This document shows positions 2,128 to 60,884 of a stretch of 64,000 nt of DNA, piece after piece. The position numbers and the translations under genes are program-made. This stretch comes from Aureococcus anophagefferens (taxonomy: Eukaryota > Sar > Pelagophyceae > Pelagomonadales > Pelagomonadaceae). Every line of letters starts with the position of its first letter. Positions within the stretch are counted from its first letter, which is position 1. The stretch lies in contig NW_008705567.1 of the NCBI RefSeq assembly GCF_000186865.1, positions 1,984,440-2,048,439 on the forward strand. The letters are read 5' to 3'. The notes under the pieces were generated by a model. The model was not told where the DNA came from and ran no database searches. It saw nothing but the letters and a program-made list of their open reading frames with translations.

Positions 2128-3937
2128 AGCAGGATATAGTCGTCCCCTTTCTCGTCGTCGAACGTGACGACGGGCACGGTCCGTCGCCGCTTCTCGTGGT
2201 CGATGTACTTCATGTCGAGGTTGAGCGTGAGCCGGTAGCCGCCGTCGGCCTCGTAGGCGAAGTCGTCCTTCTTGTAGCGCTCGTCGAGGAAGGAGATGAA
2301 CGAGTCGGGATTGTGCGTGAGCGCGCGATTGACCGTGACCTTGGCCTGGAGCTCCTTCTCCTGGAACTCCTCGATGTCGTTGCCCGAGACGTCGAGCGCC
2401 GTGAGCGTCGTGTTCCGCCGCAGCACGTCGAGCAGGCGGTTGACGCCGAAGCCGCCCGCGGCCGTCGCGTCGTTCTCGGCCTGGGCAGCACAAGAGAGAT
2501 TCAACATCGCTTCAACGTGAGTGTTCCGCGCGCGCGCGTTCCGGAAAAAGCATCCACGCTTCGAGACCGTTCCGAGAGATGATCGCTCGTCCAAAAATCA
2601 GCCGAAACGAGTGGAAAACGGCTGAGAGAGGAGCCTTTGAAGTTGGAAATTTCGCTCTCTTGTCCTGCCCTGTTCTCGGCGATCTTGAGGTCGACGATGG
2701 ACCGGTTCGTCGCGAGCATGTCGGCGATGGCCTCGACGCCCCGCGCGCCGGCGCTGTTCGACGACAGGTTCAGCCGCTCGACCCTCGGGTGGCTCGCGGT
2801 GATGCCCGCGACGACCGCGATGGCCTTGTGGTCCAGCGAGTTCGCGGAGAGGTCGAGGCTCGTGATCGACGGCACCGTCAGCGTGTCCCGGAGCATGATG
2901 GCCTCCGGCAGGCGCAGCTCGAGGCCCGTCAGCTTCACGGTCTCCGGCGGCGTCTCGAGGAACTCGCGGAGCGGCAGGCAGTTGAGCGCGACGAGGTTGT
3001 CCGTCGACCGGAACGCGCGCGCGAGGCGCTCCGCGGCGCCCTCGGAGATGTCGTTGAGCCGCACGTCGATGCGCCGCATCGTGTAGTTGTCGCTGAGCAC
3101 CTCCGCGAGCGCGTCGGCGGTCTTGTCCGTGATTTTCGTCTTCGACACGTCGAGATCCGTCAGCACGTAGTTCGACCGTAGAGCCCGCACGAGATTCAGC
3201 GCGTCCTCGTCGCGCATGAAGCAGCGCGACAGCGACAGGGACCGGATGGGGTAGTTGAAGCGCAACAGGTACTCGAGGAGGTAGAAGTCGTCCTTCTGGA
3301 GCGACTTGGACGCGAGCAGGAGCTCGCCCTTCATGTGCCCGGCGTTCCAGTAGGAGATCTTCTTCGGCACCTGGACCTCGTCGGCCTGCTCCTGGACGCT
3401 CCGCGGCTCCGTCTCCGCGCGGAGCAGCCGCGCGTCCTTCTCCGTCGGCGACAGGAGCAGGGACCGCGCGCGCCGCCGCGCCGGCGGCGGCTCCTCGCGC
3501 GCCTCCTCCTCCGCCGCGACCTCCTCCGCGGCCTCGGCCTCCTTCTCGCCCTCCTCGCCCTCCTCGCCCTCCTGCGTCTCGCCCTCCTCGCCCTCCTCGC
3601 CCTCCTTCTTCTCGCCCTCCTCGCCCTCCGCCTCGCCGTCCTCCTCGCCCTCCTTCTTCTCGCCCTCCTCGCCCTCGGCCGCGCCCTCCTCCTCCTGCTC
3701 CTCCTCGTCGCCGAAGAACTCCTTCTTCCACTCGGCGATGACGTCCTCGTCGACGGCGCCCTCGAGCAGCAGCGGCAGCGACGGCCGCCGCGGCAGCGTG
3801 TGGGCCTGGAGCTTCTTGGGCGTCAGGCCGTCGAGCAGCACGCGCGACGACTGCACGCGGTTCATGAGCTTGATGACCGCATTGCCCTCCTCGAGCTCGC
3901 CGATGCGCTTCTTCAGCCATGACCCCAGCTCGACCAT
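2124..3937 (-). CDS. Leucine-rich-repeat protein with Glu-rich tract, split by introner A1
   Basis: Two exons: 3937-2681 (419 codons, phase 0) and 2480-2124, total 537 aa. Intron 2680-2481 (GC-AG, 200 bp) is introner A1; joining reads DLKI/AENDATA and continues the LRR solenoid. Residues ~80-150 are a low-complexity acidic tract (EGEEGEKKEGEE type). From ~residue 215 there are RNI-type leucine-rich repeats (LSLSRCF, LTDLDVSKTKITDKTADALAEVL, LDLSANSLDHKAIAVVAGI, LTALDVSGNDI). The tail is basic then acidic (KYIDHEKRRRTVPVV). LRR proteins of this type act as protein-binding scaffolds; no specific partner is evident. The start at 3937 follows a Met in a good context, 141 bp from the divergent ankyrin gene. 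The stop overlaps the neighbour's stop. Confidence 0.85.
2481..2672 (-). mobile_element. Introner element A1 (GC-AG intron in LRR gene)
   Basis: A 192-bp element flanked by an 8-bp target duplication, GCCGAGAA on the coding (minus) strand, at 2680-2673 and 2480-2473 (ninth base also identical). In coding sense the ends read CAGGGCAGGACAAGAG and CTTGTGCTGCCCAG, a near-perfect terminal inverted repeat. The intron is the element plus the upstream target copy: donor GC from the target, acceptor CAG from the TIR. Body orientation is forward (GGCTGATTTTTGGACGA in sense). No transposase is encoded, so it is non-autonomous. Confidence 0.93.
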
Positions 3938-4078
3938 GGTTACCGGTGCTGCGGCGCGGGCAGCGCGTCGCGCGCGCTGCCCAGACGCTGCCCGCTGCGA
4001 CCTTGAATGTTCAACTGGGTTGGTTGCATCCATGATGCTGCGGCCGCGGCCGACGGCACGACTCGGTGCGCCCTTACG

Positions 4079-4771: not shown

Positions 4772-4798
4772 AGGACATGTGCTCTGTAATCTTGGGAC

Positions 4799-18538: not shown

Positions 18539-21500
18539 ATGGCCGCCACCTACGACGAGGCCGGCGACAGGCAGTTCTGGGGCGGCTGCCGCGGCGTCTT
18601 CCGGCTCTACGGCGCGTCGTGGATCCCGCCGCTCGCGCGGCGGGGCATGGCGACGCCCGTGGAGCGCGACGACCTGCCGCCGTACCTGCCCGAGTTCGAC
18701 AGCGCGCCGTCCATGGCCGCGGCCGACGCTTATCTGGGCGCGAAGCGCTCCGCGGGCGCGCGCGTCCGCCTCGCGCTGTTGCTCTTCGACGTCGGCCGGC
18801 GCCGCGTCTGCACGGCGCTCTTCTTCGGGCTCTGCCAGGGTTTGTTATCTACCGTCGGGCGGCCCTTTATTCTGGTCTGGGCCATCCGCACGGCCGCGCG
18901 GGGCCCGCGCTACTCCAACGAGTACAAGGTGCTCGTCGCGTGCGTCTTCGGATTCGTCGTCTTCAGCGAGGGCCTGAGCCAGATGCTCATGAGCCTGAAC
19001 ACGCAGCTCTTCTCGTTGCGGAGCCTCCAGGTGGCGTCGACGCTCGTGGCGCGGCGCGCGGCGACGCTCAAGGCCGCCGGGGCCGCGCTGGTGGCCCCCG
19101 ACGAGCGCGCGCCGAACGCGAAGCGCGGCGCCAAGGGCGGCTCCTCGGAGGCGAACCTCGTCGGGTCGGACCTCGTGTCCATCGTCGAGATGTGCCGCTT
19201 CTTGGTGTTCATGCCCGCGTCGCTCGTCGCCATCGTCGGCGGCTGCGTCATGCTGTTCACGCGGCTCGGCTTCGTGCCGACGGTCGCGGGCGTCTGCACC
19301 TGTGTGGAAACCAAATCTTCAACCCGACTTCAATGTGAGCGTATTCGAATGTTTTGACACAAGCTCTTCAGCTGGGCTTCGAGAACTCGACTAGATCGAT
19401 CGATCCGTCCAAAAATCAGCCGAATCGACTTCGATTTGACCGAGCTAGAGAATTCTCAAGTTTGGTCAGGACCACCCAAACCAGTGGTTGGTTTCCACAC
19501 AGGTCTGCACGATGGTCCTCGTGCTCTTCACGAACACGCGCCTCGCGCGCGTCACGAAGCGCGCCCAGAAGGTGAACCTGGGCTTCGCGGACCAGCGCCT
19601 CGAGCTCATCAACGAGGCCCTGCGGGGCATCCGGTCCTTCAAGCTCTTCGGCTGGGAGCCGGGCTTCGAGTCGCGGGTGGCGGCGGTCCGGGACAAGGAG
19701 TGCGCGGCGATCTTCCGGTTCCGCTGCTCCCAGGTCGTGTCCGTGAGCCTCGGGCGCGCGTCGCCGGCGCTGGCGTCCTGCGTCGCGTTCATGGCCTGCT
19801 TCTACTCGGGGGAAGGCGATCTGGACTACGCGTCGGTCTTCGCGGCGCTCAGCGTCTTCCAGGCGCTCCGCGTGTCCATGATCATGCTCCCCCAGACCTA
19901 CATGTACATTTTGGTGATGAAGGTGAGCTTCGACCGCCTCGACGCCTACCTCTTCCCGGAGGCGGCCGAGACCGAAGAGCAGGAGGAGACGTCCTCGGAG
20001 CTCGCGGCGCTCACAGACGCGACCTTCGTCTTCCCCAAAACGGACACGCCGGCCCTCGAGGACGTGACGCTCTGCGTGCGGCCCGGCGAGGTCGTCGCCG
20101 TCGTCGGCGCCGTCGGCGCGGGCAAGACGTGCCTGTTGGCCGCGGCGACCGGAGGCGTGTTATCGAGAACCAAGGGGTCGCGCGCGCTCGGCGGGTCCGT
20201 GGCCATCGCGCCCCAGAAGGCCCTCGTGTTCTCCGCGACGGTGCGGGCCAACGTGCTGCTGAGCCGCCCCTTCGACCGGTCAAGGTACGAGGCCTGCGTC
20301 GACGCGTGCGGCCTGCGCGCGGACTTCGATTTGTGGCAACCCGCGGGCGACCTCACGGAAGTCGGCGAGCGCGGCGTCACGCTGAGCGGCGGCCAGCAGG
20401 CGCGCGTGAGCCTGTGCCGCGCCCTGTACGCCCGGCCGGACCTCCTCGTGGCCGACGACCCGCTGTCGGCGTTGGACGTCCGCGTCGCCGCGCACGTCTT
20501 CGAGGCCGCGTTCCGGCGCTACGCGTCGCCGGAGCGCGGCGTGCTGCTGGCGCTGAACCAGATGCATTTGGCCGCGAAATGCGACCGCGTCGTCGTCGTC
20601 GTCGGCGGCCGCGTCGTCGAGCAGGGCCCGCCGGGCGAGCTGTCGCGGACCGGCGCGCCGCACTACGCCGCGCTCGCGTCCGCGCGCGAGGGGAGCCACG
20701 ACTCGCTCCTCGAGCTCGAGGAGGCGCGGCGCGCGTCGCCCAAGCCGGGCGCCGCGGACTACGAGGAGAACGTGACGCCGCGCGCGCAGTCGCCCGCGAC
20801 GCTGCCGCGGCCGCTCGCGGCGGGACCGGCGCCCAAGTCGAAGCTCGAGGAGCTCTTCGCGGGCACGGACTTTAGCGACGGCGCCGACGTCGACGCGCTG
20901 GGCATGGACATGCGCGAGCGGTCCTTCGCGCCCGCGGGCAGCGAGCGGACGAACAACCCGCGGGCCTTCGACGGCGCCGCGCAATCGTCCGTGCTCGCGT
21001 GCCTCGGCGCGGGCGGCGACATGATCGACGAGTACGACTCGCCGCCGGGGTCCGACGTGAGCGACGACGAGGATTTGACGTCCTCCCTGGGCGCGACGTG
21101 CATGGTCGGGCTCGACTTGGCGGCGATGGCGGGCGCGCCCGCGCCGCCGCCGCCCGCGCGGCTGCCGACGCCCGTCGAGGAGGTCGACCTCTCGCCCCCG
21201 CTCAGAAAGGCCGTGGAGCTCGACGTCGCGGGCAGCGACGACGACCTGGGCGTGGCCTTCTACAAGGAGGACGACTCGCTCATCTTCTCCGCGAGGCCCG
21301 TCGCGCGGCGCGACGGCGCCGCCGCCGCGCCGCCGCCGCCGGCCGACGCGACGCGGCTCGCGGCGATGGTGGGGCGGCCGAGCGCCGCCCTGTCGTCGGC
21401 CATGTTCGACGACAAGCTCACGGAGAAGGAGCGCGAGGCGAAGGGGGCGTTGGTCGAGGCGGAATTCCAGCGGAAGGAGGCGATCGCGGGGTCGATGTAC

Positions 21501-23497
21501 AGGAAGTACCTCGAGAACTTCGGCGTCGCGCGCTTCTGGTGCACGGCCACGGTCTGCGGTGCGTCCTACGGCTGCTTCGCCCTCGGGGACTGGTCCCTGA
21601 GCCGCTGGATCGGCATCCTGGACGTCGACGGCGAGGAGAAGCGCGAGGACCGGCTCGAGTCGGACCGCGCGGAGGACGCGATGTGGCTCTACGGCATTTT
21701 TGTATTGCTGTCGGCGGTGCTCTTGATCGCGACGTCCGTGCTCTTCTCCGCCGGCGGCGTGCGCGCGGCGAAGACGCTCCACCGCGACTGCCTGCACCGG
21801 GTCCTGCGCGCGCCCTTGTCCTACTTCGACGCGACGCCGACGGGCCGCCTGACGTCGCGCTTCTCCGCGGACCTGTCGGTCGTGGACCTGCAATTATCCT
21901 TCTACGTGGACCACGTCTTCCAGATGTCGGGCCAGATTCTGGTCTTCGCGGTGCTCATCGCGGCCGTCGTCCCGCCGATGGTCGCGGTGCTCGCCGTCGC
22001 GCTCGCGGCCTACGGCGTCGTCGTCGAGGTCGCCGACGTCGGCCTGCGCAACGCGAAGCGGCTGGCGAACGCGGCCTTCGCGCCGCTCATGACGAACTTC
22101 TCGGAGATTCTCGCGTCGCGGTCGATCTCGCCGGGCTCCGGCGACGCGTACGTCGAGAAATTCTTCCTCGGGCGCCACGCGATCCACGCGCACGACGTCG
22201 CGCACCTGCGGTTCTGCACGGAGTCCGTGCCGGCCTGGGCGAATCTGCACGCGACGCTCATCGCCGCGGCCTGCGCCTGGGCCACCGCGCTCGTCGTCCT
22301 CTTGGACGGCTCGGGGACCGTCGTCGACGAGGCGACGGCGCCGCTCGCGCTCACCTACAGCGTGCTGTTGCCCTACTTCCTGAGCGTGCTCATGTTCCAG
22401 CTCACGACGCTGCGGCTCTATTTTAGCTCCTTCGAGCGGCTCCAGGAGCTCTGCGACCCGGAGCACGGGCCGCCGGTCGAGAAGCACTGGGCAGGGCAGG
22501 ACAAGAGAGCGACATTCCCAACTTCAAAGGCTCCTTTCTCGGCCGTTTTCCACTCGTTTCGGCTGATTTTTGGACGAGCGATCATCTCTCGGGACGGTCT
22601 CGCAGCGTGGATGTGTTTTCCGTAACGCGCGGAACACTCACGTTGAAGCGACGTTGAATCACCCTTGTGCTGCCCAGGCACTGGGACACGCCGGCGACGC
22701 ACCGCGAGCCGCCCGCGGAGCTCTGGCCGTCGAACGGGTCCCTGCGCTTCGCGGACGTGACGCTGCGCTACCGGCCGGGCCTGCCGCCGGCGCTGGAGCA
22801 CCTGAATTTGTACGTCGAGGGCGGCACGAGGGTCGGCGTCATCGGCCGCACGGGCGCGGGCAAGTCGAGCCTCGTCGCGCTCGTGCTCCGCCTGGTCGAG
22901 CCCGAGGCGGGCCGGGTGCTGATCGACGGGCTGGACGTGGCCTTCGTCGGGCTCTGCGCCCTGCGGAAGCGCGTGTCCATGGTGCCCCAGGACAACGTGC
23001 TGCTGAGCGGGTCCGTCGACCGGAACCTGGACCCCTTTGAGGAGCACGGGTCGCCGGACAAGCGGCGCGCGCTCGACGCCGCGGGGCTCGGCGCGCTGGC
23101 GCTGGACCATGTCGTCAAGGCCGACGGCGGCTCCCTGTCGGCGGGGGAGAAGCAGTTGTTGGGCGTCGCGCGCGCGCTGCTCCGGAAGACGAAGGTCGTC
23201 GTCATGGACGAGCCGTCGTCGAACGTCGACGAGCACACGGACGCCGCCGTGCAGCGCGTGCTCAAGGACGCCTTCGTCGGGACGACGAGCCTGACCATCG
23301 CGCACCGCCTCGAGACGGTCATCGACAGCGACATGATCCTCACGATGGACGCGGGCGCCGTCGCGGAGTTCGACCACCCGGCGAACCTCCTCGACGACCC
23401 GGACTCGCGCCTCAACCTCCTCCTCGCGGCCCTCGCGCCGGACCAGCGCGCCGCGCTCCTCGCCCGCGCGAAGCCCGTCACCCACGGGTCCCTCTAG
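18539..23497 (+). CDS. ABCC-type (MRP) full-length ABC transporter, two introners
   Basis: Three exons: 18539-19291, 19503-22483 and 22678-23497, 1517 aa. The order is TMD1 (~85-380), NBD1, a ~300-residue acidic linker, TMD2 (~660-960), NBD2, the ABCC layout. NBD1: Walker A GAVGAGKT (~452), signature LSGGQQARVSLCRAL (~544), Walker B LLVADDP with Asp replacing the catalytic Glu. NBD2: Walker A GRTGAGKS (~1050), signature LSAGEKQLLGVARAL, Walker B VVVMDEPSSNVD with an intact Glu. One degenerate site is typical of ABCC exporters of organic anions, glutathione conjugates or toxins. Introns B1 (phase 0, GT-AG) and A2 (phase 2, GC-AG) restore the frame exactly. Start ATG 18539 follows the 48-bp duplication. 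Confidence 0.93.
19300..19502 (-). mobile_element. Introner element B1 (GT-AG intron in ABC gene)
   Basis: A 203-bp element between 8-bp target copies GTCTGCAC (19292-19299 and 19503-19510). Its 15-bp terminal inverted repeats are perfect: CTGTGTGGAAACCAA and its complement ending CCACACAG. The spliced intron is 19292-19502 (211 bp): the donor GT is the first two target bases and the acceptor CAG is the TIR end. The body is reversed relative to transcription (GGCTGATTTTTGGACGA lies on the opposite strand). Confidence 0.95.
22492..22677 (+). mobile_element. Introner element A2 (GC-AG intron in ABC gene)
   Basis: A 186-bp family-A copy flanked by GCACTGGG at 22484-22491 and 22678-22685. The ends read CAGGGCAGGACAAGAG and CCTTGTGCTGCCCAG. 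The intron is 22484-22677 (194 bp), with a GC donor from the target and a CAG acceptor from the TIR; it joins phase-2 exons exactly. Body orientation is forward. Confidence 0.95.
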
Positions 23498-26319: not shown

Positions 26320-27833
26320 ATGCAGCGGCGCCACGCGGCCGCGTCGGACGCCGCCGGCGGCGGCTGGGAGAAGAGCGACGCGCCGTCCATCGAAGCGCTC
26401 GAGGCGCCGCCCGTGAAGCGGCCGGCCGTGCCGCCGCTGCGCCGCGGCGCCCGGGGCCTCAAGGGCAAGAAGGCGCGGCGGCCGCGGGACCCGAACTTCG
26501 AGCCCGGCGGCCCGCCGCTCGCCGCCGTCGTCGTCTTCGCGCTGCTGGCCTTTGGCGTGCTCGGCTACCACCTCTACTGCCACCACTACGTGCCCGACGC
26601 GCTGCCCATATCGTCGGTCGTCGCGAACGACCTCCACGGGATCCACGACCTCCTGACGGCGGGCGCGGCGGGCGTCTTCCTCCTCGACGGCGACCGCGCC
26701 GTCGTCGTCGAGGCCGCGGAACGGCTCGCGAAGCTCCTGCCGCAGATCCACCCGCTCGCGGAGTGCCGGGCCGCGATCGGCGACGCCGTGCGCGCGCCGA
26801 GCGACGGGGACCGGGCCCACGGCGGCCTCCCCGCCGAGGTCGCCGCGGCGGCGCGCGCGTCCTGGGCCTGCCTCCCCGGCGCCTTCGACGCGGCGTCCTT
26901 CGACCGCGAGCTCGCCTTCGAGGCCTGGCGCGTCGGCAACGTCACCGACGAGAAGCTCGCGCGGCGGCCGAAGGTCGCGGACCGCGCGAGCCTCGGCGCC
27001 TGCCGGCCGTCGTCCTGGGACCGCGCCTGCTCCTTCTGGGTGAGCCTGCACGCCCTCGCGGCGCGCGCCGACGCCAAGGGCCTCCAGGACGCGTTCCTCG
27101 ACAGCACGACGAAGCTGCTCGCGGGCGGCGCGACGCAGTGCGCGGCGTGCACGAACCACTTCCGCCTCCTCGCGACGCCGCCCCACGGCAAGCTCTTCCA
27201 CCCCTTCCTCTTCGACGCCGTCCACCACGACCTCGCGTACTGCGCGAACGTGCAGTGCAGGGCAGCAAAAGAGAGCGAAATTCCCAACTTCAAAGGCTCA
27301 TATCTCGGCCAGTTTTCACTCGTTTCGGCTGATTTTTGGACGAGCGATCATCTCTCGGAACGGCCTCGAAGCGTGGATGCTTTTTCCGTAACTCGCGCGC
27401 GCGGACCACTCATGTTGAAGCGACGTTGAATCACCCTTTTGCTGCCCAGGTGCAGTGCTCGCGCGCGACGCAGCACATCGTGCCGCTCGCGGACTGCGCG
27501 CGCAACGACCGGCCCTGCCAGACGCCGGGCATGGAGGCGGAGAAGCGGGACATCTACGCCTTCCGCCAGTGGATCAAGTCCCGCAAGCACGTGTCGGCCT
27601 GGGACACGTACGTCGTGCTGCACAACCTCGTCACGGACGGCCTCCTCTCCGGCGACGTGAAGCGCTTCGAGTGCGCCGACAGGGCCTACGACGCGCTCCC
27701 GGCCTTTTTGACGCCCGACGCGCCGCGCAAGCCGCGGGTCAAGGCCGGCGGCGGCGTCGCGGGGTCGCTGCCCCCCGGCGTCGCGCTCCCGGGCGTCGGG
27801 CCCCACCGGCTCCTCGCCTGCGCCGACCTCTAG
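26320..27833 (+). CDS. Membrane-anchored Erv/ALR-like sulfhydryl oxidase candidate, introner A3
   Basis: Exons 26320-27249 and 27450-27833, 437 aa. A single TM (~67-86, AAVVVFALLAFGVLGYHLY) makes it a likely type II protein. Residues ~90-160 may be a degenerate thioredoxin-like region. The C-terminal half resembles Erv1/ALR domains: SFWVSLHALAARAD (W..LH.LA), QCAACTNHF (CxxC followed by H) and YVVLHNLVTDGL (HN.V). Such enzymes oxidise thiols for disulfide formation in the secretory pathway, like QSOX. The CxxC spacing and HN motif fit, but the similarity is remote. Intron 27250-27449 (GT-AG, phase 0) is introner A3. The stop shares CTAG with the next gene. Confidence 0.65.
27258..27449 (+). 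mobile_element. Introner element A3 (GT-AG intron)
   Basis: A 192-bp family-A copy between target copies GTGCAGTG (27250-27257, 27450-27457; ninth base also matches). The ends read CAGGGCAGCAAAAGAG and CCTTTTGCTGCCCAG. The donor GT comes from the target and the acceptor CAG from the TIR. Body orientation is forward. Confidence 0.95.
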
Positions 27834-33672: not shown

Positions 33673-35950
33673 TCACGCGTCCGCGTCCGCCGCATCATCC
33701 GGGGGATCCGCCGCATCATCCGGGGGATCCGCGCCGTCCGCGCCGCCGTCCGCGCCGTCGTCGTCCGCGCCGCCGTCGTCGTCCGGGCCGCCGCCGTCGT
33801 CGTCCGCCTCCTCCGCCTCCTCGACCTCGCCCGCCTCCGCCTCGCCCGCCGCCTCCGCCACGTCGTCGCCAACACCGCAAGCATCGCGGCCGTGGTCCTC
33901 GGAGCCTCGGGGGCTGGCCGGGTCGTCGTCGTCGCTCTCGTCGGCGTCGTCGTCGACGTGGAGGTCGTCGGGCGCGAGGCCGCCGCCCGGCGTCGTCGGC
34001 GCGCGCGCGTTTTCGAGGTGCGCGGGCGACGTGGGCACGCGCGGGGGCATGCGGAAGGGCTCGGGCTCGGGCGTCCGCGCCTCGTCGTCCGCGTCCGCGC
34101 GGCGCTGCGCCTCCTCCAACAGCGCGAAGCAGGCGTCGGCGCGCACGAGGTCCAGGTCGCCGAGCGCCGCGGCGCCGACGGCCGGCGGCGCGACGGGCAG
34201 CGGCACGCGGCGGACGTCGTCATCGGCGGCGCCCGCGGCGTTTTCGGGGTCCGCGGCGACGGCCGCCGGCGACGGCAGCGCGTCGCCGGCGCCGACGTCC
34301 GCCGGTGCGCCGTAGCCGGCCTTGGAGAAGAGGGCGCTCTTGAACTCCGTCGTCGACGCGTCGGCCATGGCCGTGGACAGCGACGCGCGCTCGTGCGCGA
34401 AGAGCGTCGCCGCGTGGACGACGACGGGCGCGCCGTCCCCGACGTCGCCGGGCGCCGTCGCGAGCACGAAGGCCTTGAGCTGCGTCGCCGGGAGCACGTC
34501 GTCGAGCACCTTCGTCAGCGCCTGGAGGTCGTACTTGCGGTTCGAGAGCGCGGAGCTCTCGAAGACGCAGAGCTTCCGGAGCGAGTCGCGGATCTCGTCG
34601 ACGACGAGCTCCTCGGCGCACTGGTACTCGGCGAGGACGCGCTGGGCCTCGAGGGCGCAGGCCCGGCTCTCGTTGCGCAGCTCGGCCCATTTGTCGTCCG
34701 CGTCCGCGCGCGCGGCCGCGGCGTCGCGCGCGGCCTGCGCGGCGAGGCCCGCGAGCGCCGCGCGCCGCTCGGCCTCCGTGGGCAGGAGCCACTGCTCGAG
34801 CTTCTTGTTCTGGTGCGCCTGCTTCGGCGACGGCTCCTTGGGCCGCAACGGCGACGCGAAGCCCATGGCCGCGGACGCGGACGAGCCGAGCGCGGACGCC
34901 TTGCCTGTGTGGAAATCGACCACTGGTTTGGGGGGTCCCCGCCAAACTTCAGAACTCTCTATCTCGGTCACATCGAAGTCGATCCGGCTGATTTTTGGAC
35001 GAATCGATTGCTCTCATTGAGTTCTCGAAGCACGGCAGAAGATCTCGCGTCAAAACCGTCGCATCTGCTCACATTGAGGTCGGGTTGAAGATTTGATTTC
35101 CACACAGCGCCCTGCCGGAGAGCGTCGACGTGAGGCGGCTCGTCCAGCGGAGCGCGTGCCTCTTCTCCGTCTCCGACGGCGCCGAGGCAAGGATGCCCGC
35201 GGCGCTGGACTCGTCGGGGCTCGCGGGCTCGTCGGGCGGCGCGCGCGCGGCGTCGTCGTCCTCGGGCGCGCCCGCGGCCGCCGCGCGCGCGGCCGCCGCC
35301 GCGACCTCGGCGTCGACGGCCGCGGGCGGCACGCCGGCCTCGACGGCGGCGTCGGCCTTCGCCGCCGCGTCCGTGAGCTTGTGCCGGTACGCGGCGAGGG
35401 CCCGGCGGTAGCGGTCGTCCGCGCCGCGGACCGCGCGCTGCGTCGACACGCCGCGTTTCACGCACTCGGCCGCCGTCGCCGCGGCCTCGCCGCGCGCGGC
35501 GGCGAGGGGCCGCGCGACGTCCATGGCGACGTGGGCCGCGAGGTCGCCGTGCTGCTCCGACGACCCGCGCAGGTTCGACGCGACGCGCGCGAGCGCCTCG
35601 CGCGTCGGTACGTCCGCGCCGTCGTCCTCGGTCTGCAGCGCGGCCTCCAGACGGCCCGCGATGGCCGCGAGGCCCTGGGCGTAGGTCTTCTCCACGGCGG
35701 CGAGGTCCTTCATGGCGCGCGCGAGCTCGCCGCACTCGGTCTGCGCCTCGGCGCCGCGCCGCTTCACCGTCGACAGGGCGCCGACGAGGTGCGTCGCGTA
35801 GCTGAGCCCGAGGGCGACGACGGCGTCCGGCCCGTCGCTCGGCGACGGCGTCGGCGTGCGCGGCGACTTGTCGCTCGCCGGCGACGGGGTGACGGGCGGC
35901 GGCGCGCCGTCGGCGGCGGCGCCTTCCTGAGCCATTTCGGCTGCGCTCAT
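33673..35950 (-). CDS. F-BAR-domain-like protein with acidic tail, introner B2
   Basis: Exons 35950-35116 and 34904-33673, 688 aa. Residues ~30-210 form a helical FCH/F-BAR-like domain (ELARAMKDLAAVEKTYAQGLAAIAGRL, RVASNLRGSSEQHGDLAAHVAMDVARPLAAARGE, RYRRALAAYRHKL). Such domains bind and curve membranes in endocytosis and link them to actin. A second helical region (~300-470) has FASPLRPKEPSPKQAHQNKKLEQWLL and LRKLCVFESSALSNRKYDLQAL. The C-terminus is highly acidic with GADGADPPDDAADPPDD repeats. Intron 35115-34905 (GC-AG, phase 1) is introner B2. It starts 127 bp from the divergent O-fucosyltransferase. Confidence 0.75.
34905..35107 (+). mobile_element. Introner element B2 (GC-AG intron in F-BAR gene)
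   Basis: A 203-bp copy. In the gene's sense the target copies are GCAGGGCG (35115-35108) and GCAAGGCG (34904-34897), one mismatch, suggesting an older insertion or a later substitution. TIRs CTGTGTGGAAATC / GATTTCCACACAG are perfect over 13 bp. The donor GC comes from the target and the acceptor CAG from the TIR. The body is forward on the plus strand, hence reversed relative to the minus-strand gene. Confidence 0.93.
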
Positions 35951-36076: not shown

Positions 36077-38193
36077 ATGCGCGGGTCCTCCGTGCTGCCC
36101 TTCGCCGTCGGCCTCTGCGCCGGCTACGCCGTCTTCAGCATCGCGGCCCTGCACCGCGAAGCGGCGACGCGCGAGGTCGTCGCCGAGGCGGCGCGCGCGG
36201 CGGCGGCGGCGGAGCGCGCGGCGTCGGCGAGCGCCGCCGCGGCGAGCGCCGCGGAGCGCCACGAGAAGGCCGCGCTCGGCGCGTCGCTGCGCGCGCTCGC
36301 GGCCGCCGCGGGGCCGGGCCCGGCCGAGGAGGAGGACGACGCGCGCGCGTGCGGCGTCGCCGTGCCGGCGGCCATGCGCTACTGGGCCGACGCCGAGGTT
36401 CCGGCGCCGGCCGGCGCCGTGCCGGCCTACGACGTGGAGGCCTACCTCACCTTCGTGCCGGACTTCGGGGGCTGGAACAACGTGCGGCTGAGCCTCGAGA
36501 CCGCGCTGGTCCTCGCGCGCGCGTCGGGCCGCGTGCTCGTGCTGCCGCCGGTGCAGAGCTACTACCTGCTGACGGCGTGCAAGGCCGCCGAGGGCGGCTG
36601 CGAGTACAGCCTCGCGGACTTCGCGCCGCCGCTCCTGGCCGCGCGGAGCCGCGCGCGCGTGATATCGTCCGAGGAGTTCTTCGCCGAAATCCTCCCGCGG
36701 CTCGCGGCGGAGGGGCGCCTCGCCGACGACGTCGAGTGGCCGCCGCGGAAGAAGGTGACGAACGCGGCGGCGCGGTGCACGCCGCGCCACAAGGCGACGG
36801 ATAGCTGCTTCCCGCTCTACGAGTGGCTCGACGCGTCGTTCGTCGCGGATTTCGTGCCGGACACGGAGGGCGGCGTCGTCATCTTCGGCAAGGCCCGGGC
36901 GCAGCGCGTCTTTGGGGACGACTTCACGGAGGCGCGGGTGGCGAAGCTGCGCTACGACCCGCCGGAGTGGCGCCGCGACGGCCTGGCGCGGCTCTGGCGC
37001 GAACCCGTCGACGGCAGGGCAGGAAAAGGGTGATGCAACGTCGCTTCAACGTGAGTGTTCCGCGCGCGCGCGTTTCGGAAACAGCACCCACGCTTCGAGA
37101 GCGCTCCGAGAGATGATCGCTCGTCCAAAAATCAGCCGAAACGAGCGGAAAACGACCGAGATAGGAGCCTCTGAAGTTGGGAATGTCGCACTCTTGTCCT
37201 GCCCAGGTCGACGGCGACAAGGAGCTCCGGGACAACCGTTTGGCGCGGGCCGTGGTCCACCTGCGCACGGCGGGCTGGAAGACGCACGGCGCCGACGCGA
37301 AGCACGTCGACCGCGCCGGGCGGCTGCTGACGCCCTTCTACGCGTACGCGGCCGACGTGGACCCGGCGGCGAACAACTTCTACAAGCGGCTCGTGCGCGA
37401 CGTCGTGCGCCACAGCGACGCCGTGACCTGCGCCGCGGCCGCCATCGTGACCTGGCTCGGGCGCATGGGCGGGCCCGCGGTGCCGGGTGCGGACGCGGCC
37501 TTTAGCAGCCTGCACGCGCGGATGAACGAGTTCCAGTTCGGCGAGAGCGGCAACCTGGCCGCGGAGACGCTGCGGGACGCCGTGGGGCGGTCCCTGGGCG
37601 CGCGCGAGGCGTTGTACGTGGCCACGGACGCGCCGGACCGCGCGACGTTCGACGCGATCCGCCACCGAGGGCACCGCGTCGTGCTCCTGTCGGACGCGAT
37701 CCTCGCGTCGACGCGCGCGCGGCGCAACGCGACGGGCCCCCTGCCCCTCAAGTACGCCAAGGACTGGAACGGCGTGTCCATGACGCCCGCCGAGGCCGCC
37801 GCCGTCGCCGCCGTCGGCCGCAACGAGCACGGCCTCGTCGACGTGCTCGTCGCCGCCCAGGGCCGCGCGTTCACGGGGACGTGGTTCTCGACGCTGACGA
37901 CGCACGTCCAGCGCATCCGCGGCTACGTCGGGCGGCCCGACGAGTCGACGTTCTTCTCCATGGCGACGCGCTGGGCCGCGTGCCAGCGGTGGGAGGAGCC
38001 GCGGCGGCCGTGGTACATGCGCGAGTTCCCGACGGCCTGGCGGGGCATCGCCGGCGACGACCAGCCGGGGCCGCGGCCGGGCGAGGGCGTCTACAACGGG
38101 CCCAAGGACGGCGTCGACTACCAGCAGAAGGGCTACCCCGCGGACGGCGCCGCGGCGGACCCGAGGACCCGGCCGTTCCCCGTCCGGCGATAA
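36077..38193 (+). CDS. GDP-fucose O-fucosyltransferase-like type II membrane protein, introner A4
   Basis: Exons 36077-37006 and 37207-38193, 638 aa. A short N-terminus and TM (~5-24, VLPFAVGLCAGYAVFSIAAL) give Golgi type II topology, followed by an Ala/Glu stem. The catalytic region begins DFGGWNNVRLSLETALVLARASGRVLVLPP, the GG(W/x)NN(Q/x)R motif of O-fucosyltransferases. Further C-terminal are AFSSLHARMNEFQF, ALYVATDAPDRATF and AAQGRAFTGTWFSTLTTHVQRIRG (the GTxxST motif). It likely transfers fucose or a related sugar to glycans or proteins in the Golgi. Intron 37007-37206 (GT-AG, phase 0) is introner A4. The stop is 1 bp from the convergent gene's stop. Confidence 0.88.
37015..37206 (-). 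mobile_element. Introner element A4 (GT-AG intron), body inverted
   Basis: A 192-bp family-A copy between GTCGACGG target copies (37007-37014, 37207-37214; ninth base also identical). The body is reversed relative to transcription, unlike A1-A3, yet the transcribed ends still read CAGGGCAGGAAAAGGG and CTCTTGTCCTGCCCAG. It therefore still donates the acceptor CAG. Confidence 0.95.
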
Positions 38194-38194
38194 A

Positions 38195-40412: not shown

Positions 40413-40590
40413 TGCAATATTGCGCGAAGGCAGCCCCGCCCGCCTGCGGCATCGTTCACAGCTTGAACCAGCTGAAGTTGGCCGAGCCGAGGCATTCCCG
40501 GCCGGCGCACCGACTCTGAAGCGCGTCGACGCGACGCAAAAAAGTCTGAGAGCGTTCTCGCAACGTACGAGACACGCAAAACACGCAATC

Positions 40591-41184: not shown

Positions 41185-41299
41185 GCTAAGACGCGATCGA
41201 AACGTACCCTATGAGCGCGCCGGCGCGCCGCGGCTGGGCTAAGACGCGATCGACACGCGCCCTACCAGCGCGCCGCGGCTCGGCTCAGACTCCATCGAC
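41170..41299 (+). repeat. Degenerate triplicated ~50-bp tandem repeat at a gene 3' end
   Basis: Three units starting GCGCGCCGCGGCT at ~41170, 41223 and 41268 fill the space between the plastid-type gene's stop and the stop of the convergent oxidoreductase. The first unit supplies the TAG; later units read TGG or TCG there. It is probably a slippage expansion of the 3' end. Confidence 0.75.
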
Positions 41300-49569: not shown

Positions 49570-50113
49570 GGAATTGCAGTCGCAGCGCTGGAAACGCGTA
49601 TCTAAAATAACTCCCGAGTACATCTCTCGTTACAAGACCATACGGAGGGTGGGCAGCGCCTCACGTCTGCCCCGTCGAATTGTTGAGGGGGAGACTCGTG
49701 GTCGCGTCGGAGCTGCGGCGCCCGGTGGCGGTGGCATAGGCGCGGATCCGCGGCCCCGGCGGAGCGCGCCCGAGGCGGCGGCCGGCCTTCTTCGGGCAGC
49801 ACCATGGGGTGCGTCTCGCGGCGTCCGCGAAAAGCCGAAGGTCGAGGCGCGCGCGCGCGCGGCGCGCCCGGGTCCCGCGGCGCGGCCCGGTCCCGCGCGG
49901 CGCGCCGCCGCCGGAGCGGCCGCGCAAGGCGGGACGGTTCGCCGCCGCCGCCGCCGCGGCCGCCCGGGCCCGGCCCGCGGCCCCGCGCGCGCGCGCGCCG
50001 CGCGCGGGACCCCCGCCCCCCCCGTCCGCGCGAAGGAAGCGCCGCACCAGCCTGACCCGCGCCCCCCGCGTCGCAGCGAGGACGCGGAGAAGCCGAAGAA
50101 GTCGAAGCCGAAG

Positions 50114-56100: not shown

Positions 56101-57382
56101 GGACTGCGCGACGCGCATGATGACGGCGTCGAACGTCGACCCGGCGCTCCAGAAGCGCGTCTGCGACTTCTTCGACTACGTCGACCAGGAGCTCTACAAC
56201 CTGGACGCGCAGGAGATCTTGGACGAATTAAACATCGCGCTGCGCAACGACATCCTGCACCGCGCGGCGCACCTGAAGCTCTGCGACTCGCTCATGTACG
56301 GCGGCTTCGAGGCGGGCATCGTCGCGACGATGGTCTACCAGATGAAGACGATCGTCGCGGTGCCCCAGGAGAAGGTGCTGGAGATCGGCCAGCCGGACCC
56401 GTCGCTCTACATCTTCCAGAGCGGCGTCGCCCACTCGCTCGACGGCTGCGGCGACGAGGAGTACATCGCCGTGGGCATGATCCTGAGCAACATCGAGTTC
56501 AAACAGGTCGCGAAGCGCGTCGGCGTGCCGACGAAGCAGCTCGTCATCAAGATCGTCGCGTGCCGGGGGCTGCCGACGCAGAACGGCGCGTCGGCGCGGT
56601 TGCTGGGCGCGTCGCCCTGCGACCCCTACGTCGAGGCCGTCGTCATCTCGAAGACGGTCTTCGGCCAGTCCGTGAAGACGTGCGCGACCAAGGTCCGCAA
56701 GTTCACCTGCGACCCGGAGTACAAGGAGACCTTTACATTGAAGGCCTACCAGAACACGGAGACGGCCCTCGTGTCCGCCATCCACTGGCGCCGGGGCCTC
56801 GCGGGCAAGAAGCTGGGCACGGCCGAGATCGCCGTCAAGGAGAAGTACAAGCGGCCCATGTGGCACAAGCTGCTCAACGACGCGGGCAAGAAGGTCGGCG
56901 ACGTCAAGGTCAAGTGCGAGTTCAACGCGCTCGAGCGCTCCGGCATCGCGTCGACGGCCGAGCTCACGGTCGTCGCGGACTCGTTCTGCCACCTCTACTT
57001 CCTCGACTTCCGGTCCCAGGACATCGTCAAGAAGTACATCAAGGGCATGCGCCTCAACCTCACGAAGCGCCTCGAGGGCCTGAGCGGCGGCGGCGCCGCG
57101 GACTGGCGCCCGGAGGAGACCGCGCTCGACGCGATGACGAACGGCGACGACGAGATGTCGCTCTGCTCGAACCACCAGAACTCGCGCGGCTTCGAGGCCT
57201 ACATGTCCGAGGCCTTCTCGAAGCGCTCGACCAAGGGCTCCGTCATGCAGGTCAGCGACAACAGGCGGCGGAGCTCCCTCGGCGGCAAGCAGGGCGGCGG
57301 CGGCGGCGGCCGGGACAAGAAGGGGCCCCGCGGCACCGTGTCCCACGCCGACGACAAGGGCAAGGTCGTCCCCGTCAAGTAG
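50114..57382 (+). CDS. Four-repeat cyclic-nucleotide-gated-type K+ channel with C2 domain (CNGK-like)
   Basis: 2422 aa from MTMRLSSANM at 50114; the frame is open further upstream to 49574 through Arg/Pro/Ala-rich sequence, so the true start is uncertain. Four homologous 6-TM units lie in one chain. Selectivity filters are TIGYGDS (~319), TVGYGDI (~839), TVGYGDI (~1401) and a degenerate TIGYGAL (~1944), spaced 520-562 residues. Each unit is followed by a C-linker and a cNMP-binding-like domain (repeat 1 EGDFFGDFQLVLD); repeats 2-4 are increasingly divergent. A C2 domain follows at ~2140-2260 (LVIKIVACRGLP, SPCDPYVEAVV). S4 segments carry few regular Arg/Lys. It recalls the single-chain CNGK/tetraKCNG channels of animal sperm. 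Expected role: K+ conductance controlled by cyclic nucleotide or voltage, possibly with Ca2+/lipid binding by C2. Confidence 0.9.
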   Translation: MTMRLSSANMLKLPGNKKIKMPFVIKNPLKDKLPIFLPDDPRKNYWDALMFMVIFYNCNMTPIAIATQPRKSNIMSQLRLVDFAFDVLFVFDTLAGFMFAFKDPDTKEIVKDQKAIGDMYMSSARLKLNLLAISPLVTLPNPFSNFLLGSGVCKSVFSGHEDKVVRVSRKMCLKAARLTRSSRIFLFFAQLNAVRVILEDKKIMIMNEATFRMTQIIVSLIFMCSFCGSFYFFLACNDNRPKRSPYCTYGNMTKPTGTWDYDYDDGGGWSSGERARREKHLDGAKTWVGADAVFQEHRSWDAVVARMMYFCVQTLFTIGYGDSVAPVSKDEIQFSLFLMLTGALTYALVIANMTSVLANANVLYCRHTDETNTMASLMDDRDLPDGLKGRVKLSFEYMWSKQWGMLDRHLLGEMPVKLREMVLESQIALVKQVPFFAPEVRKGNDDLAKAAALAMATRVYIPQSTIVYAHEKQREMFIVRVGPILVYSMQSPTAIASLAEGDFFGDFQLVLDVKHPVAMKTGMSFAELFTLAYKDYAAIKKALEIKVEESDPAVVAMTEAYQARLKQWQTKNTNMAASADADDVAGAADVRELAAQNVREAQSKRLLILPYAKFHLFWEPGLFVAVFFTFLMIPMRAMLYTNEWKRGTDRRGPGADWTLWVEYLCDAAFLVDMYLRLNHFAHQGIVAGEEVLITDQRKIMSHYVKSFRFKVDVVANFPYVILAPILMSITDSSGGDDSGFNLGPMWFAALRFPHLLRGLNFGVYLKEIRDYLDIGEGVVIKDKTITILQRTYETIFLIIFMACFWSIIHGHGTGDEGQSFNSAFLRSFYFAIVTFTTVGYGDITPSTISETWFMVVSGAVGATFFAGIVANITSFVHSVDISEDNISHKRTVMTTFMEERALAEETQHMVNSYFDYMENEKGGLDDLKLLNKFLAENMKDDVTLYLTHRVILSFKIFRGTEAGFLRSVMLVLVQHFYMRDEQVVVQGEPADGTSFIAAGDVDIILDGEVVKSLTTNEAFAEAAILSVVDAFPYTASCTSYNEQWFLSRTAFVRLLPEFLVVRAKLTDMAKRVRTYKVKNGNRATRQTTSADGDGKGSAVGMSAGRRSLPPYIYHPEGTFMRLWGFALLFFVVWNVLLVPFKVCFMDGFGIEKSVVVILFIDYVGDIVFLADIVLQARYVAFLEGDQVIHSRKKIFNRYRKNGLWSHVACSVPFDVLFFAEAMFPNSYLRYLSKVQFLSVFRVNKMIRFGDVVDLVKRCEASCNAVGLKLHKNSVRMARLIFAILISSHFFGSIFFAIANTRGKANACARYRRRGPRGDKYCGNWAMERGGIWPPNLLNVEFYEGVGFPDVLGVANTTATFSAWGTKKPKWDVNYSLGSDKYLWKQYVNSFYWGSATITTVGYGDISPTSLAEIIFAIFCLIMSVIIYTLIVANLEDIVANLDVTNTLNNIKREKVKQYCLRSYLPEKVQSSIFDYYDKLWAQQKGVSGTELLKMLPENLRAHVVQELAGNMVRDMVYVRHCRPRIIYEVALQLTLDLYMPMDFLFHSGECAWQIFFIFFGSAQLLDEGTKQVYSSLERAALGESEFFSRVLYPVSAQATDYSQIFVLHYDNLVKVMRDNDLLAEFKQHCIDNEAEIKEGSLDKIKDVMAVNLKHEKIIKSYTQMGVGNELDKSINRLIDPGSLFKRLWLLVCLAGMCYYLISVPFEIGFGRHYKKQTFFMDVMLMCFYCVDVYLNMTVFMVKKQGKVISDREHFRALYIQQYFFNDVVGLAPLSLLSVLTQNTSFQDKFIKANYEPVINALRLFQVLRVKQANLYVASLLTFLEDFGVNLNGDMIYLIMLIVVVLVMCHWLACLFYAIGRWELWYARADSPGGYWSTSSSDYGENTREAFKWYKDDAYGCEEYLAMKNGRNNIWMCDGGMYAAGARDRWLMAFYWAMYTCSTIGYGALSIKSNAEKLLSCLAMILGAVVCDAGVTAVLTAFIEHMDHQAGTNKRRMDCATRMMTASNVDPALQKRVCDFFDYVDQELYNLDAQEILDELNIALRNDILHRAAHLKLCDSLMYGGFEAGIVATMVYQMKTIVAVPQEKVLEIGQPDPSLYIFQSGVAHSLDGCGDEEYIAVGMILSNIEFKQVAKRVGVPTKQLVIKIVACRGLPTQNGASARLLGASPCDPYVEAVVISKTVFGQSVKTCATKVRKFTCDPEYKETFTLKAYQNTETALVSAIHWRRGLAGKKLGTAEIAVKEKYKRPMWHKLLNDAGKKVGDVKVKCEFNALERSGIASTAELTVVADSFCHLYFLDFRSQDIVKKYIKGMRLNLTKRLEGLSGGGAADWRPEETALDAMTNGDDEMSLCSNHQNSRGFEAYMSEAFSKRSTKGSVMQVSDNRRRSSLGGKQGGGGGGRDKKGPRGTVSHADDKGKVVPVK

Positions 57383-57585
57383 CCGCCCACGCCGGCCGCG
57401 CCCCCGATCCCGACGCAGCGCGTACCCCCGCGCCTCTGTCCCGCACCCGCCGCGATCGCTCGTGTCCCCCAAAGCTAAACTCACATATCCCCTTTAGCTT
57501 GTGCGTTCGAAGCGCCGAAGACTCTTCCTTCCACATGAGTCTTCGAGCGCCAGTGGCGCGGCCACCGCGGCACTTTCACCGAATC

Positions 57586-58617: not shown

Positions 58618-58927
58618 ATAGCGCGCCCGGGCCGCGGTTGGCTGCGATGCGTGGTGTGGGCGTTCTGACTGGGCTTGGAGATGTGCGGGGCCACGCGCCA
58701 GCCCAGCAGGGAGGTCTGCACCTTCGTGAGGCTAAGGCCGAGACTCAGCCTGCTCTCATCATGTCTCTCATCCTGCCATGGCCGATATTTACTGGGTTCT
58801 TTCCCTGGTGTTGAAGCGCGAGAAACGTCTCAGCAAGGAGATGATGTGTTTTTGATCGCTCCATCGCGCCTCGAAACGCAGCCGAACCGCAGCCGAAACA
58901 CAGGCAGCCCGAGGCGCGCGCGCGACC
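58618..58927. other. Divergent intergenic region, 310 bp
   Basis: This lies between the starts of the unknown gene (58617) and the EF-hand gene (58928). It is AT-richer than coding DNA. No repeat or recognisable motif stands out. Confidence 0.4.
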
Positions 58928-60884
58928 ATGGGCGCGTCGGCGTCGGCCCCCGCGGAGCTCGACCGCGCCAAGGCGCGCGCGCTCGTCGGCGCCGGCTGGA
59001 ACGAGGAGACGGAGAAGCGCTGGGCCGAGCTCTGCGGCGAGGGCAGCACGGTGTCGTTGCTCGCCGCCGCGGAGGTGGCCAAGGAGCTCAAGCTGCAGAT
59101 CGTCGACATGCGGGACGCCGTCGCGACGATGCGGTCCGCGGCCATCGACATGGAGGACTCGGGCGTCCGCGCGATGATCAAATTGGCGGGCAAGAGCGCG
59201 AAGCTCGGCCACCTCAACGAGCTCTTCCGCCAGTTCAACAACCCCGAGGTCATCAGCGAGCGGCGCGAGCGCGTGCGCGCGGAGGCCGCGGCGGCCGTCG
59301 CGGAGCTGGAGAAGCTGAGCGAGGAGGAGAAGCAGACGGCGCGGGGCCAGGGCGACCTGGACATGTACACGCACGAGTCCCAGGCCATCCGCGAGGAGTT
59401 CTTCGTGTCGCACCGGGGCATCAGCGACGAGCTCGAGAAGTGGTGGGAGGCCGCGTCGCTCTTCTTCGACGACAACTGGGACGATTTTTTATCCAAGGAC
59501 GAGTACGCCAAGTTCCACGAGCGGCTCCTGCGGCTCATGCGCGAGGAGGACGAGATGACCAAAGAAGAGGCCCAGGCGGCGCTCGACGCGGACTTCGAGG
59601 TCGACGCGGGCGAGGACGGCCGCGTGAGCCTGTGTGGAATTCAACCACTGGTTTGGGGGGTCCCCACCAAACTTCAGAACTCTCTATCTCGGTCAAATCG
59701 AAGTCGATTCGGCTGATTTTTGGACGAATCGATTGCTCTCGTCGAGTTCTCGAAGCACAGCCGAAGAGCTTGCATCGAAACTGTCGCATACGCGCACATT
59801 GAAGTCGTGTTGAAGATTTGAATTCCACACAGGCGTGAGCCACGAGGAGTTCCGCTACGCGATGTTCCAGCTCGCGGACCACTGGACGACGTCGCTGGAC
59901 GCGCGCGAGTACGTCGACTTCCTGCGGTCGGGCTACGACGTCGTCTTCGCGGATCTGATCGCCGCGGACCACATGCGGCCTCCAGAAGAATGGCGCAAGG
60001 CGCTCAAGGGCTTCAAGGGCAAATCCGTCGCGCTCGTCAAGACCGCGCTCGGCCCGGACGCGTGCATCGAGATCATCTCCGACATCTACGCGTCCAAGCT
60101 CGTCGCCAACGCGGCCAAGGAGAACCGGGGCAAGGCGCGCGTGCCCCTCGCGCAGTTCACGATCAACTACTTCGTCCGCAAGCACGGCGCGAACACGAAG
60201 ACGTGCGTCGTGAAATTCAAGGAGTTCTCCAACGGCGTCGCGAACATCGTCGACGACCACGGCCACGCCTTCCACGACTACGCCCTGGTCTACGCGCAGA
60301 TGGTGGGCTACACGACGCGCTCCGGCCGCGTCCGCCCCTACACGACGGAGAACTGCGCGTTCATGATGGACTTCTTCCGCGACCTCCAGCCCGTGGTCGA
60401 CAAGATTTTGGGCGAGCAAACGATGCTCGACACGTACCTCCAGAAGGCCCTGCGGAACAAGAAGGTCGCGTCCCACTTTGGGTTCCTCATGGCCGACGAC
60501 GTCGAGACGATGATCGTCGACCGGCTCCGGGCCTTCGGGGGCGTCGACGGCGACGCGCCGCTCTTCCAGTGCATCCACTTCGCGTTCCAGGCCGTCTGCC
60601 AGGTCAAGGAGGTCGACCACCACGGCCAGCGGCTGTCGGTGAAGCTCTGCACGGCCATCGACGCGCTCACGTTCGTCGGCACGGTCGCCGGCGCCGTCGA
60701 CGTCATCAAGCAGTCCGCGAAGGACGGCGAGGTCGCCGCGGCGCCCAAGACCATCGGCCACGTCAAGCAGCAGTCCTGGCAGGTCGCCCACGCCATGAGC
60801 GGCCGCCAGCTCGCCAAGGGCGGCGGCGAGGACGAGCTCCGCGCGCCCGAGACGACCCCGAAGACGAAGCCGGGGAAGGCCTAA
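58928..60884 (+). CDS. EF-hand/helical calcium-binding protein, introner B3
   Basis: Exons 58928-59621 and 59833-60884, 581 aa. The first part is helical (ARALVGAGWNEETEKRWAELC, VRAEAAAAVAELEKLSEEEKQ). EF-hand-like segments follow: DDNWDDFLSKDEYAKFHERLLRLM and, spanning the intron, DAGEDGRVSHEEFRYAMFQLADH (D..EDGRVS..EF), which is complete only after splicing. Downstream is a ~250-residue region with KTALGPDACIEIISDIYASKL, FTINYFVRKHGANTKTCVVKF and CVV/IDALTFVGTVAGAVDVI; family unknown. A Ca2+-regulated role is inferred from the EF-hand. Intron 59622-59832 (GC-AG, phase 1) is introner B3. Confidence 0.75.
59630..59832 (+). mobile_element. Introner element B3 (GC-AG intron in EF-hand gene)
   Basis: A 203-bp copy between target copies GCGTGAGC (59622-59629, 59833-59840). 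TIRs CTGTGTGGAATTCAA/complement are perfect over 15 bp. Using the GT two bases into the target as donor would add two bases and break the frame, so GC is the working donor. The body is forward, opposite to B1 and B2 relative to transcription. Confidence 0.95.

Follow-up and report, generated by a model that had tools for sequence, protein, structure and literature searches.

Predicted introners of Aureococcus anophagefferens with a splice donor from the 8-bp target duplication and an acceptor from the element end

Coding sequence in the 64-kb window (the whole stretch of DNA analysed) is interrupted by seven copies of short elements, and these elements and their relatives are almost certainly introners whose splice donor would be the target duplication and whose acceptor would be the end of the element. 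This reading is carried by target duplications, terminal repeats, a GY rule at the donor, a CAG rule at the acceptor, agreement of strand, restoration of the reading frame and location in coding sequence, all of which are shown at the level of the DNA. The elements are DNA-transposon introners of the kind published for Aureococcus and Micromonas, and the mechanism by which they make introns is already known; the earlier note had called introners of this kind established in Aureococcus, and the features agree with the published ones. What goes beyond that note is that family A occurs in two end polarities and that family B carries an acceptor at each end and interrupts genes in either direction.

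Regarding the mechanism, the introners would be short DNA transposons that are non-autonomous, bear terminal inverted repeats, are moved by a transposase acting in trans and duplicate 8 bp of their target. The first target copy would act as the 5' splice site when its first two bases, read on the coding strand, are GC or GT, and the outer end of the element (CAG, following a pyrimidine-rich stretch in family A) would act as the 3' splice site; splicing at these predicted sites would take out one target copy together with the element and give back exactly the pre-insertion reading frame, and insertions that cannot be spliced would be lost.

Predicted introners in the window

Two families are represented among the seven copies, family A of 192 bp (186 bp in one copy) and family B of 203 bp. 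The A1 element at 2481-2672 lies in a gene of the minus strand labelled LRR-like (leucine-rich-repeat) from a by-eye reading of its translation, and together with the target copy on its 5' side in gene sense (2673-2680) forms the predicted intron 2481..2680 (GC..CAG, phase 0), the other target copy at 2473-2480 being GCCGAGAA. An ABCC-type transporter gene on the plus strand contains two elements, namely a B element in the X orientation (19300-19502), which with the target copy 19292-19299 gives the predicted intron 19292..19502 (GT..CAG, phase 0; second target copy GTCTGCAC at 19503-19510), and the 186-bp A1 element 22492-22677, which with the target copy 22484-22491 gives the predicted intron 22484..22677 (GC..CAG, phase 2; second target copy GCACTGGG at 22678-22685). 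The alignment of this transporter to the solved ABC transporter C family member 2 is gapless at both junctions, with low certainty at the second (22484..22677).

A further A1 element on the plus strand (27258-27449) forms, with the target copy 27250-27257, the predicted intron 27250..27449 (GT..CAG, phase 0; second target copy GTGCAGTG at 27450-27457). On the minus strand, a B element in the X orientation (34905-35107) and the target copy GCAGGGCG at 35108-35115 make up the predicted intron 34905..35115 (GC..CAG, phase 1), the other copy at 34897-34904, GCAAGGCG, having one mismatch. The A2 element 37015-37206 has a core inverted with respect to the direction of splicing and forms, with the target copy 37007-37014, the predicted plus-strand intron 37007..37206 (GT..CAG, phase 0; second target copy GTCGACGG at 37207-37214); its internal orientation is opposite to that of the other three A copies of the window, yet it ends in CAG on the gene strand. 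The surrounding gene is weakly O-FucT-like (E 0.00047, 20.3 bits, below the Pfam curated cut-off of 31.5). Finally, a B element in the anti-X orientation (59630-59832) on the plus strand gives, with the target copy 59622-59629, the predicted intron 59622..59832 (GC..CAG, phase 1; second target copy GCGTGAGC at 59833-59840).

The positions, duplications, first two bases and CAG ends given for these seven copies in the earlier note all match the sequence, as does their location in coding sequence. Six of the 8-bp duplications are perfect and the one at 34905 agrees in 7 of 8 bases, and every duplication starts with G followed by T or C and every element ends with CAG, giving GY...CAG on the coding strand (p = 1.6e-5 for GY in 7/7 by chance, at a coding-strand background of 20.7%). 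The claim that deleting the element and one target copy restores the frame also holds at all seven sites, with the same best coding frame on both flanks after deletion (log-odds margins of 40 to 95) and with phases 0, 1 and 2 all present (in order 0, 0, 2, 0, 1, 0, 1). A Viterbi segmentation that used the codon model behind these frames and no splice signals assigned 89 to 100% of each predicted intron to the non-coding state under three of the four settings; under the remaining one the share was 74 to 94%.

Element ends and polarity

The terminal inverted repeats of family A are CWGGGCAG/CTGCCCWG, inverted except at position 2, and those of family B are CTGTGTGG/CCACACAG, with variants mostly altered at both ends together. 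Family A occurs with one core and the acceptor AG at either end (A1 and A2), and the acceptor-less form CAG...CTG was not found (0 copies). In family B each end carries an acceptor, and the elements occur in genes in both directions; copies of one 203-bp B element, identical in sequence, interrupt coding sequence at three sites in either direction and always read GY..CAG on the coding strand.

At the non-acceptor end of family A, CAG is dominant and CGG, CCG and rarely CTG are also seen; a functional ban on CTG at this end was considered and rejected, as ordinary mutation after insertion would explain the end triplets. Family-A acceptors at both ends are matched at 13 places (six of 192 bp, seven of 191 or 197 bp), five of which were fetched, two of 192 bp and three of 191 or 197 bp, the latter three having a doubled end motif. 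Also rejected was the idea that the target duplication exceeds 8 bp and takes in the CAG, since on either side the CAG triplet separates octamer from core and does not continue the target. The core also has two exact matches in viral contigs (L114 and L115), 18 to 20 bases long, which were put down to chance.

On the gene strand the outermost triplets of family A may act as a direct repeat, CAG..CAG, that encloses an invertible core, and the pattern is consistent with flips of the core by recombination between the inverted repeats, the outer bases staying in place, such that one element lineage could repeatedly become an intron in both directions. That introners switch splice polarity by such flips, with gene-body-targeted insertion or active loss elsewhere also at work, is put forward tentatively and is on balance doubtful. 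The view that A1 and A2 are two old subfamilies, each of a single origin and without recurrent switching of polarity (for example from an ancestor with perfect repeats, in which T changed to A independently at the one end or the other), has about an even chance of being right. Seven interior positions separate most sampled copies, and the AU test does not reject a tree in which A2 forms one clade (p-AU 0.186, tree support being weak), but the 27 A2 copies of one contig (C1) comprise 12 with an A1-like short motif, 12 with an A2-like motif and three with neither, the exact A2-like motif occurs genome-wide 12 times with A1 ends and 85 times with A2 ends, two A2 copies show the A1 state throughout the seven diagnostic positions of the interior, and the perfect-repeat ancestor form is absent (0). 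Mixed combinations of interior motif and polarity could also be produced by recombination between copies.

The GY and CAG rule genome-wide

The sample comprised 144 copies from 108 fetched loci and the window, and the target duplication, of a fixed length of 8 bp, is 8/8 in 114 and at least 7/8 in 135 of them. The earlier note had proposed tabulating the first two bases of every target duplication. For family A this was done genome-wide: GY follows the end in 1114 of the 1130 copies with exact 8-base ends CAG..CAG, and is lacking in 16, against a background of about 21%. For family B the tabulation covers the sample only, in which all 50 copies have GY on one side or both. Within the sample GY lies on the acceptor-matched side in 52/52 A1 and 36/36 A2 copies, counts that leave out two unclassified A copies. 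Of 131 copies with a confident coding frame, 130 have CAG as the element end, and the remaining one is apparently registered one base off. One splice site would be provided by the element and the other co-opted from the duplication, seen as GY and CAG on the coding strand. The donors of the 131 copies are GC in 75 and GT in 55, GT exceeding the 21% that it makes up of GY in the background (p = 8e-8); mostly-GC donors are unusual among spliceosomal introns in general.

A target preference of the transposase could account for the GY rule in place of splicing and selection, and the unused side is indeed enriched in GY (44/131 versus 21.5% expected, p = 0.0013), which points to a mild palindromic GY....RC preference. 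This explanation of the rule is nevertheless improbable, as the 1.6-fold enrichment on the unused side compares with a value near 100% on the used side, and as the strict GY side moves with the acceptor end (A1 versus A2) and with the coding strand (family B).

Regarding the mode of spread, an RNA-based route, in which introns, once excised, enter new transcripts by reverse splicing and come back via reverse transcription, would predict location in coding sequence in the splice-competent strand, as found in nearly all sampled copies, but is very unlikely. The first 8 bases of each predicted intron are locus-specific and equal to the bases after it (8/8 in 114/144), where a reverse-spliced intron would bring the 8 bases of its donor gene; in addition, identical elements are found with different octamers, both families have terminal inverted repeats, and the use of an identical B element in both directions is not expected of RNA copies. 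Reverse splicing as the origin was rejected on the locus-specific octamers and the bidirectional use. The earlier note's description of the intron-generating system as live finds only indirect support, in that 17 of 131 copies are letter-identical to another copy but have a different target octamer.

Coding location, strand and reading frame

A confident coding frame was found for 131 of 135 sampled copies (four were without one), and the flanks of these 131 are in one frame after removal of the element. The codon model, which is blind to splice signals, could decide on the coding strand for 117 confident copies and chose the predicted strand in all 117. The model placed 12 of 12 test windows correctly, the frame of the test gene resting on a weak Pfam match, and about 970 of the 2469 bases of one training gene (38133-40601) are probably in the wrong frame, as seen in the Viterbi run. 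The spliced frame would be stop-free in 124 of 131 copies, with a stop in the flanks examined in seven. Ordinary miniature transposons left unspliced in pseudogenes or tolerated positions are hardly credible, as the elements bring an in-frame stop in 119/131 copies and, with the duplication, a length that is not a multiple of three in 126/131, yet the flanks keep one frame in 131/135, an ABC transporter with two copies is among the frame-keeping genes, and the GY rule would be left unexplained.

Many near-identical introner copies fill the predicted introns of different genes (1130 of family A genome-wide, with 131 of 135 sampled copies coding). Random insertion followed by selection would leave most family-A survivors outside coding sequence, and the near-exclusive coding location exceeds this, which suggests gene-directed insertion or loss of copies elsewhere.

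Comparison with known systems

The introners of Aureococcus anophagefferens reportedly carry one splice site and co-opt the other, as Huff, Zilberman and Roy are said to have described in Nature in 2016. An 8-bp duplication is typical of hAT-superfamily miniature transposons; family A resembles these in the duplication length and in a non-acceptor end starting with CAGGG, unlike family B, which starts with CTGTG at both ends. A mobilising transposase did not turn up: the hAT dimerisation profile PF05699 had no matches among the four candidates scored, and likewise none in control genomes.

In the available parts of the published accounts, A. anophagefferens introners have inverted repeats at their termini and direct repeats that do not vary in length (PMC7789003), are mentioned to co-opt a splice site and insert in both orientations (PMC10228655) and form introns of about 210 bp (PMC9481584). 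The present elements are alike, as far as those parts describe them, in terminal inverted repeats, fixed-length direct repeats, the predicted carried and co-opted splice sites and both orientations, with predicted introns of 200 and 211 bp. Family 4 introners of Aureococcus sp., as outlined in part of Gozashti et al. (2022; PMC9860276), share the 8-bp target duplication but carry both splice sites and add 12 bp to the transcript, whereas here one splice site is predicted to come from the duplication and nothing to be added. The introners of Symbiodinium microadriaticum, according to the legend of Fig. 2B in the same paper (PMC9860276), resemble the predicted ones here in their terminal repeats, a 3' splice site carried by the element and a 5' site derived from the duplication, the latter being 4 bp there and 8 bp here.

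Significance

The elements provide an unusually clean genome-wide case of transposon-made introns, in which the rule can be checked base by base. With over 1100 intact-ended copies, they are a resource on how the spliceosome reads donors defined by little beyond GY and on how often transposons enter genes, and can test whether the direction of an intron is set by one base at the end of the transposon.

Two introner families and the copy sample

The seven repeats of the window (GC 70.6%; genome of 49.05 Mb in 86 contigs) fall into two families, A with copies at 2481, 22492, 27258 and 37015 (192 bp, one copy 186) and B with copies at 19300, 34905 and 59630 (203 bp), which have a core segment in common (inverted repeat I12; 58 bases at 71%). 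The coordinates, target duplications and element ends that an earlier note had assigned to all seven agreed with the sequence on re-checking. Further copies came from three DNA searches, each scoring the best 40 of 1553 to 2056 candidates, with loci obtained for 40/40, 38/40 and 30/41 of the matches; once 8 partial or edge matches had been set aside, these 108 loci and the window held 144 distinct copies, 92 of A and 52 of B. End motifs were clear in most of the 144, and the 8-bp target duplication (octamer) matched at 8/8 positions in 114 and at least 7/8 in 135, with a slight bias toward matching duplications, since element ends were set jointly by end motif and duplication match. Later counts use 140 copies (4 with a duplication below 6/8 or masked bases removed) and the frame test 135 (5 more removed for short flanks). 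Terminal repeat variants CTGTGTGG, CTGTGCCG and CTGTGTGC occur in family B (e.g., loci L027, L038 and L036); in most cases the two ends of a copy change jointly and mixed copies are few, which suggests conversion between ends or co-evolved subfamilies.

Element ends and the predicted splice sites

Read in one fixed internal orientation (X), family A ends as CAG..CAG in 43/92 copies (type A1) and as CTG..CTG in 32/92 (type A2), and 14 of the remaining 17 are single-base variants of these ends. Both types read CAG..CAG on the gene strand, so that the predicted acceptor lies at opposite ends of one core; of 67 family-A copies on contig C1, 40 are A1 and 27 A2. Read outward, acceptor ends are 81 to 84% pyrimidine at -18 to -4 at either end, and thus whether an end offers AG turns on one base, at repeat position 2. 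A form with acceptors at both ends was found at 13 places, with the full 192 bp in 6. Both family-B ends offer AG; they are less pyrimidine-rich than those of A (56 to 58% over -18 to -4), and the family is used in both directions (24 confident coding copies in X, 22 in the other orientation). A single 203-bp B element, unchanged in every letter, occupies six sites, three per direction, each with an octamer of its own.

The duplication on the acceptor-matched side starts with GC or GT (GY), the predicted donor, in 52/52 A1 and 36/36 A2 sampled copies, against a background of 21.2% in the flanks; two sampled A copies fall outside both types, one of them apparently registered one base off. Family B has GY on at least one side in 50/50 copies (X alone 20, the other side alone 16, both 14). 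In the whole genome, the family-A pattern CAGGGCAG-(165 to 185)-CTGCCCAG was found 575 + 555 = 1130 times and was directly followed by GY in 567 + 547 = 1114, which bears out genome-wide, for family A, the regularity in the first two duplication bases that the earlier note had drawn from seven copies. Sixteen of the 1130 intact-ended copies lack GY, e.g., C1:2625203-2625394 on the minus strand.

Reading frame and coding strand

Four window genes with Pfam hits served to train a codon model without splice signals, which correctly placed 12/12 windows of a fifth gene; the frame of that gene is itself taken from its open frame and a weak Pfam hit. In a later Viterbi run with the model, some 970 bases of one training gene turned out to be probably misframed, an error that should make the model weaker and not bias it toward the reading. 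Calls were confident and frame-consistent in 131/135 copies, the flanks being in the same frame once the element and one duplication are removed, as had been proposed for the seven window copies. The coding strand was that predicted from GY and CAG in 117/117 decidable confident copies (A1 49/49, A2 34/34, B with one-sided GY 34/34), and the 12 confident B copies with two-sided GY split 6/6. Among the 131, the predicted spliced frame has no stop in 124, the element carries in an in-frame stop in 119, and element and duplication together have a length not divisible by three in 126. Intron phases 0/1/2 (64/32/35) are compatible with those expected from GY in coding flanks (52.5/32.6/45.9; p = 0.078).

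In three of its four settings the splice-blind Viterbi run made 89 to 100% of each of the seven predicted introns non-coding; the fourth gave 74 to 94%. One ABCC-type transporter gene holds two introners, and its predicted spliced protein aligns with ABC transporter C family member 2 (9li5), which we take to be a plant protein, gap-free at both junctions (nearest gaps about 5 and 6 residues away); alignment certainty is moderate for the first junction, low for the second.

Predicted donors in the 131 copies were 75 GC, 55 GT and one TG (the misregistered copy). The GT share among GY donors is twice the background share (p = 8e-8), and GT is commoner in A2 (23/35) than in A1 (16/49; p = 0.004). 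The side unused for splicing also has GY in 44/131 copies vs 21.5% expected (p = 0.0013), a mild palindromic GY preference at insertion sites.

Other repeats lie in the window. Four tandem 57-bp units (38978-39206; 91-100% identical) in a minus-strand TPR gene lie near a codon-model frame change (39167/39168) and may be a tandem-repeat intron of a different kind; three tandem 53-bp units (41162-41312; 60-100% identical to the reference unit) lie mostly within a predicted non-coding intergenic gap.

Origin of the end polarity

Two histories fit the polarities: a perfect-repeat ancestor may have undergone independent T-to-A changes, at one end for A1 and at the other for A2, or the core may have been inverted between the repeats. 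Genome-wide, the perfect repeat without an acceptor (CAG..CTG, exact 8-base ends) was found 0 times, and its reversed control pattern once per strand. Interior type and polarity are not cleanly linked. By a short interior motif (80-base prefix), 12/27 of the A2 copies on C1 are A1-like, 12 A2-like and 3 neither, and in two A2 copies (L080, L031) every one of the seven interior diagnostic positions has the A1 state. Genome-wide, the exact A2-like motif was counted 85 times with A2 ends and 12 times with A1 ends; 10 of these 12 have an A1-like left part of the prefix and look mixed, and two are A2-like in both parts seen. This mixing suggests recurrent polarity switching, and only suggests it, because family-A trees, on which polarity needs four changes, are weak and a single A2 clade was not rejected (p-AU 0.186; 85 of 88 copies). 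Recombination between copies is an alternative source of the mixing.

Relation to published introners, activity and genomic location

The sections consulted of PMC9860276 (Gozashti et al., 2022) describe introners with a duplication-derived 5' site and a carried 3' site, and also Aureococcus introners of another type, and those of PMC10228655, on Huff et al. (2016), describe co-opted splice sites and both insertion orientations. These accounts place the splicing rule, as the earlier note had said, among published results. Excerpts on A. anophagefferens report introners with constant-length direct and terminal inverted repeats and canonical motifs (PMC7789003) and a length of ~210 bp (PMC9481584), and the window elements very probably belong to these families or to sister ones. 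The parts of the introner literature consulted, those of these four papers among them, do not mention end-polarity types, and no novelty is claimed for them. Letter-identical copies carrying different octamers (17/131, in groups of 6, 4, 3, 2 and 2 with both B directions pooled) would fit recent activity.

A confident coding frame was found for 131/135 copies vs 1762/2330 (75.6%) other window points in the identical test, and for 24/25 copies outside search targeting with enough flank. Three queries supplied most of the fetched copies as their top matches, a selection from which the genome-wide GY count is free. The Viterbi model, partly in-sample, makes the window without the seven predicted introns 81 to 88% coding. 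At 50080-57379 lies a very long predicted coding stretch, free of family A or B matches, in which a Pfam run on 49574-55000 found several ion-channel domains and one cyclic-nucleotide-binding domain. Under a null model of random insertion, in which only sense-strand GY insertions survive in genes and insertions elsewhere are harmless, the share of non-coding copies among family-A survivors would be 57 to 69% if 12 to 19% of sites are non-coding, and 34% if 5% are. The genome-wide GY count leaves at most ~1.8% of family-A copies unconstrained, and therefore gene bodies are strongly favoured as insertion targets, or else copies are lost elsewhere.
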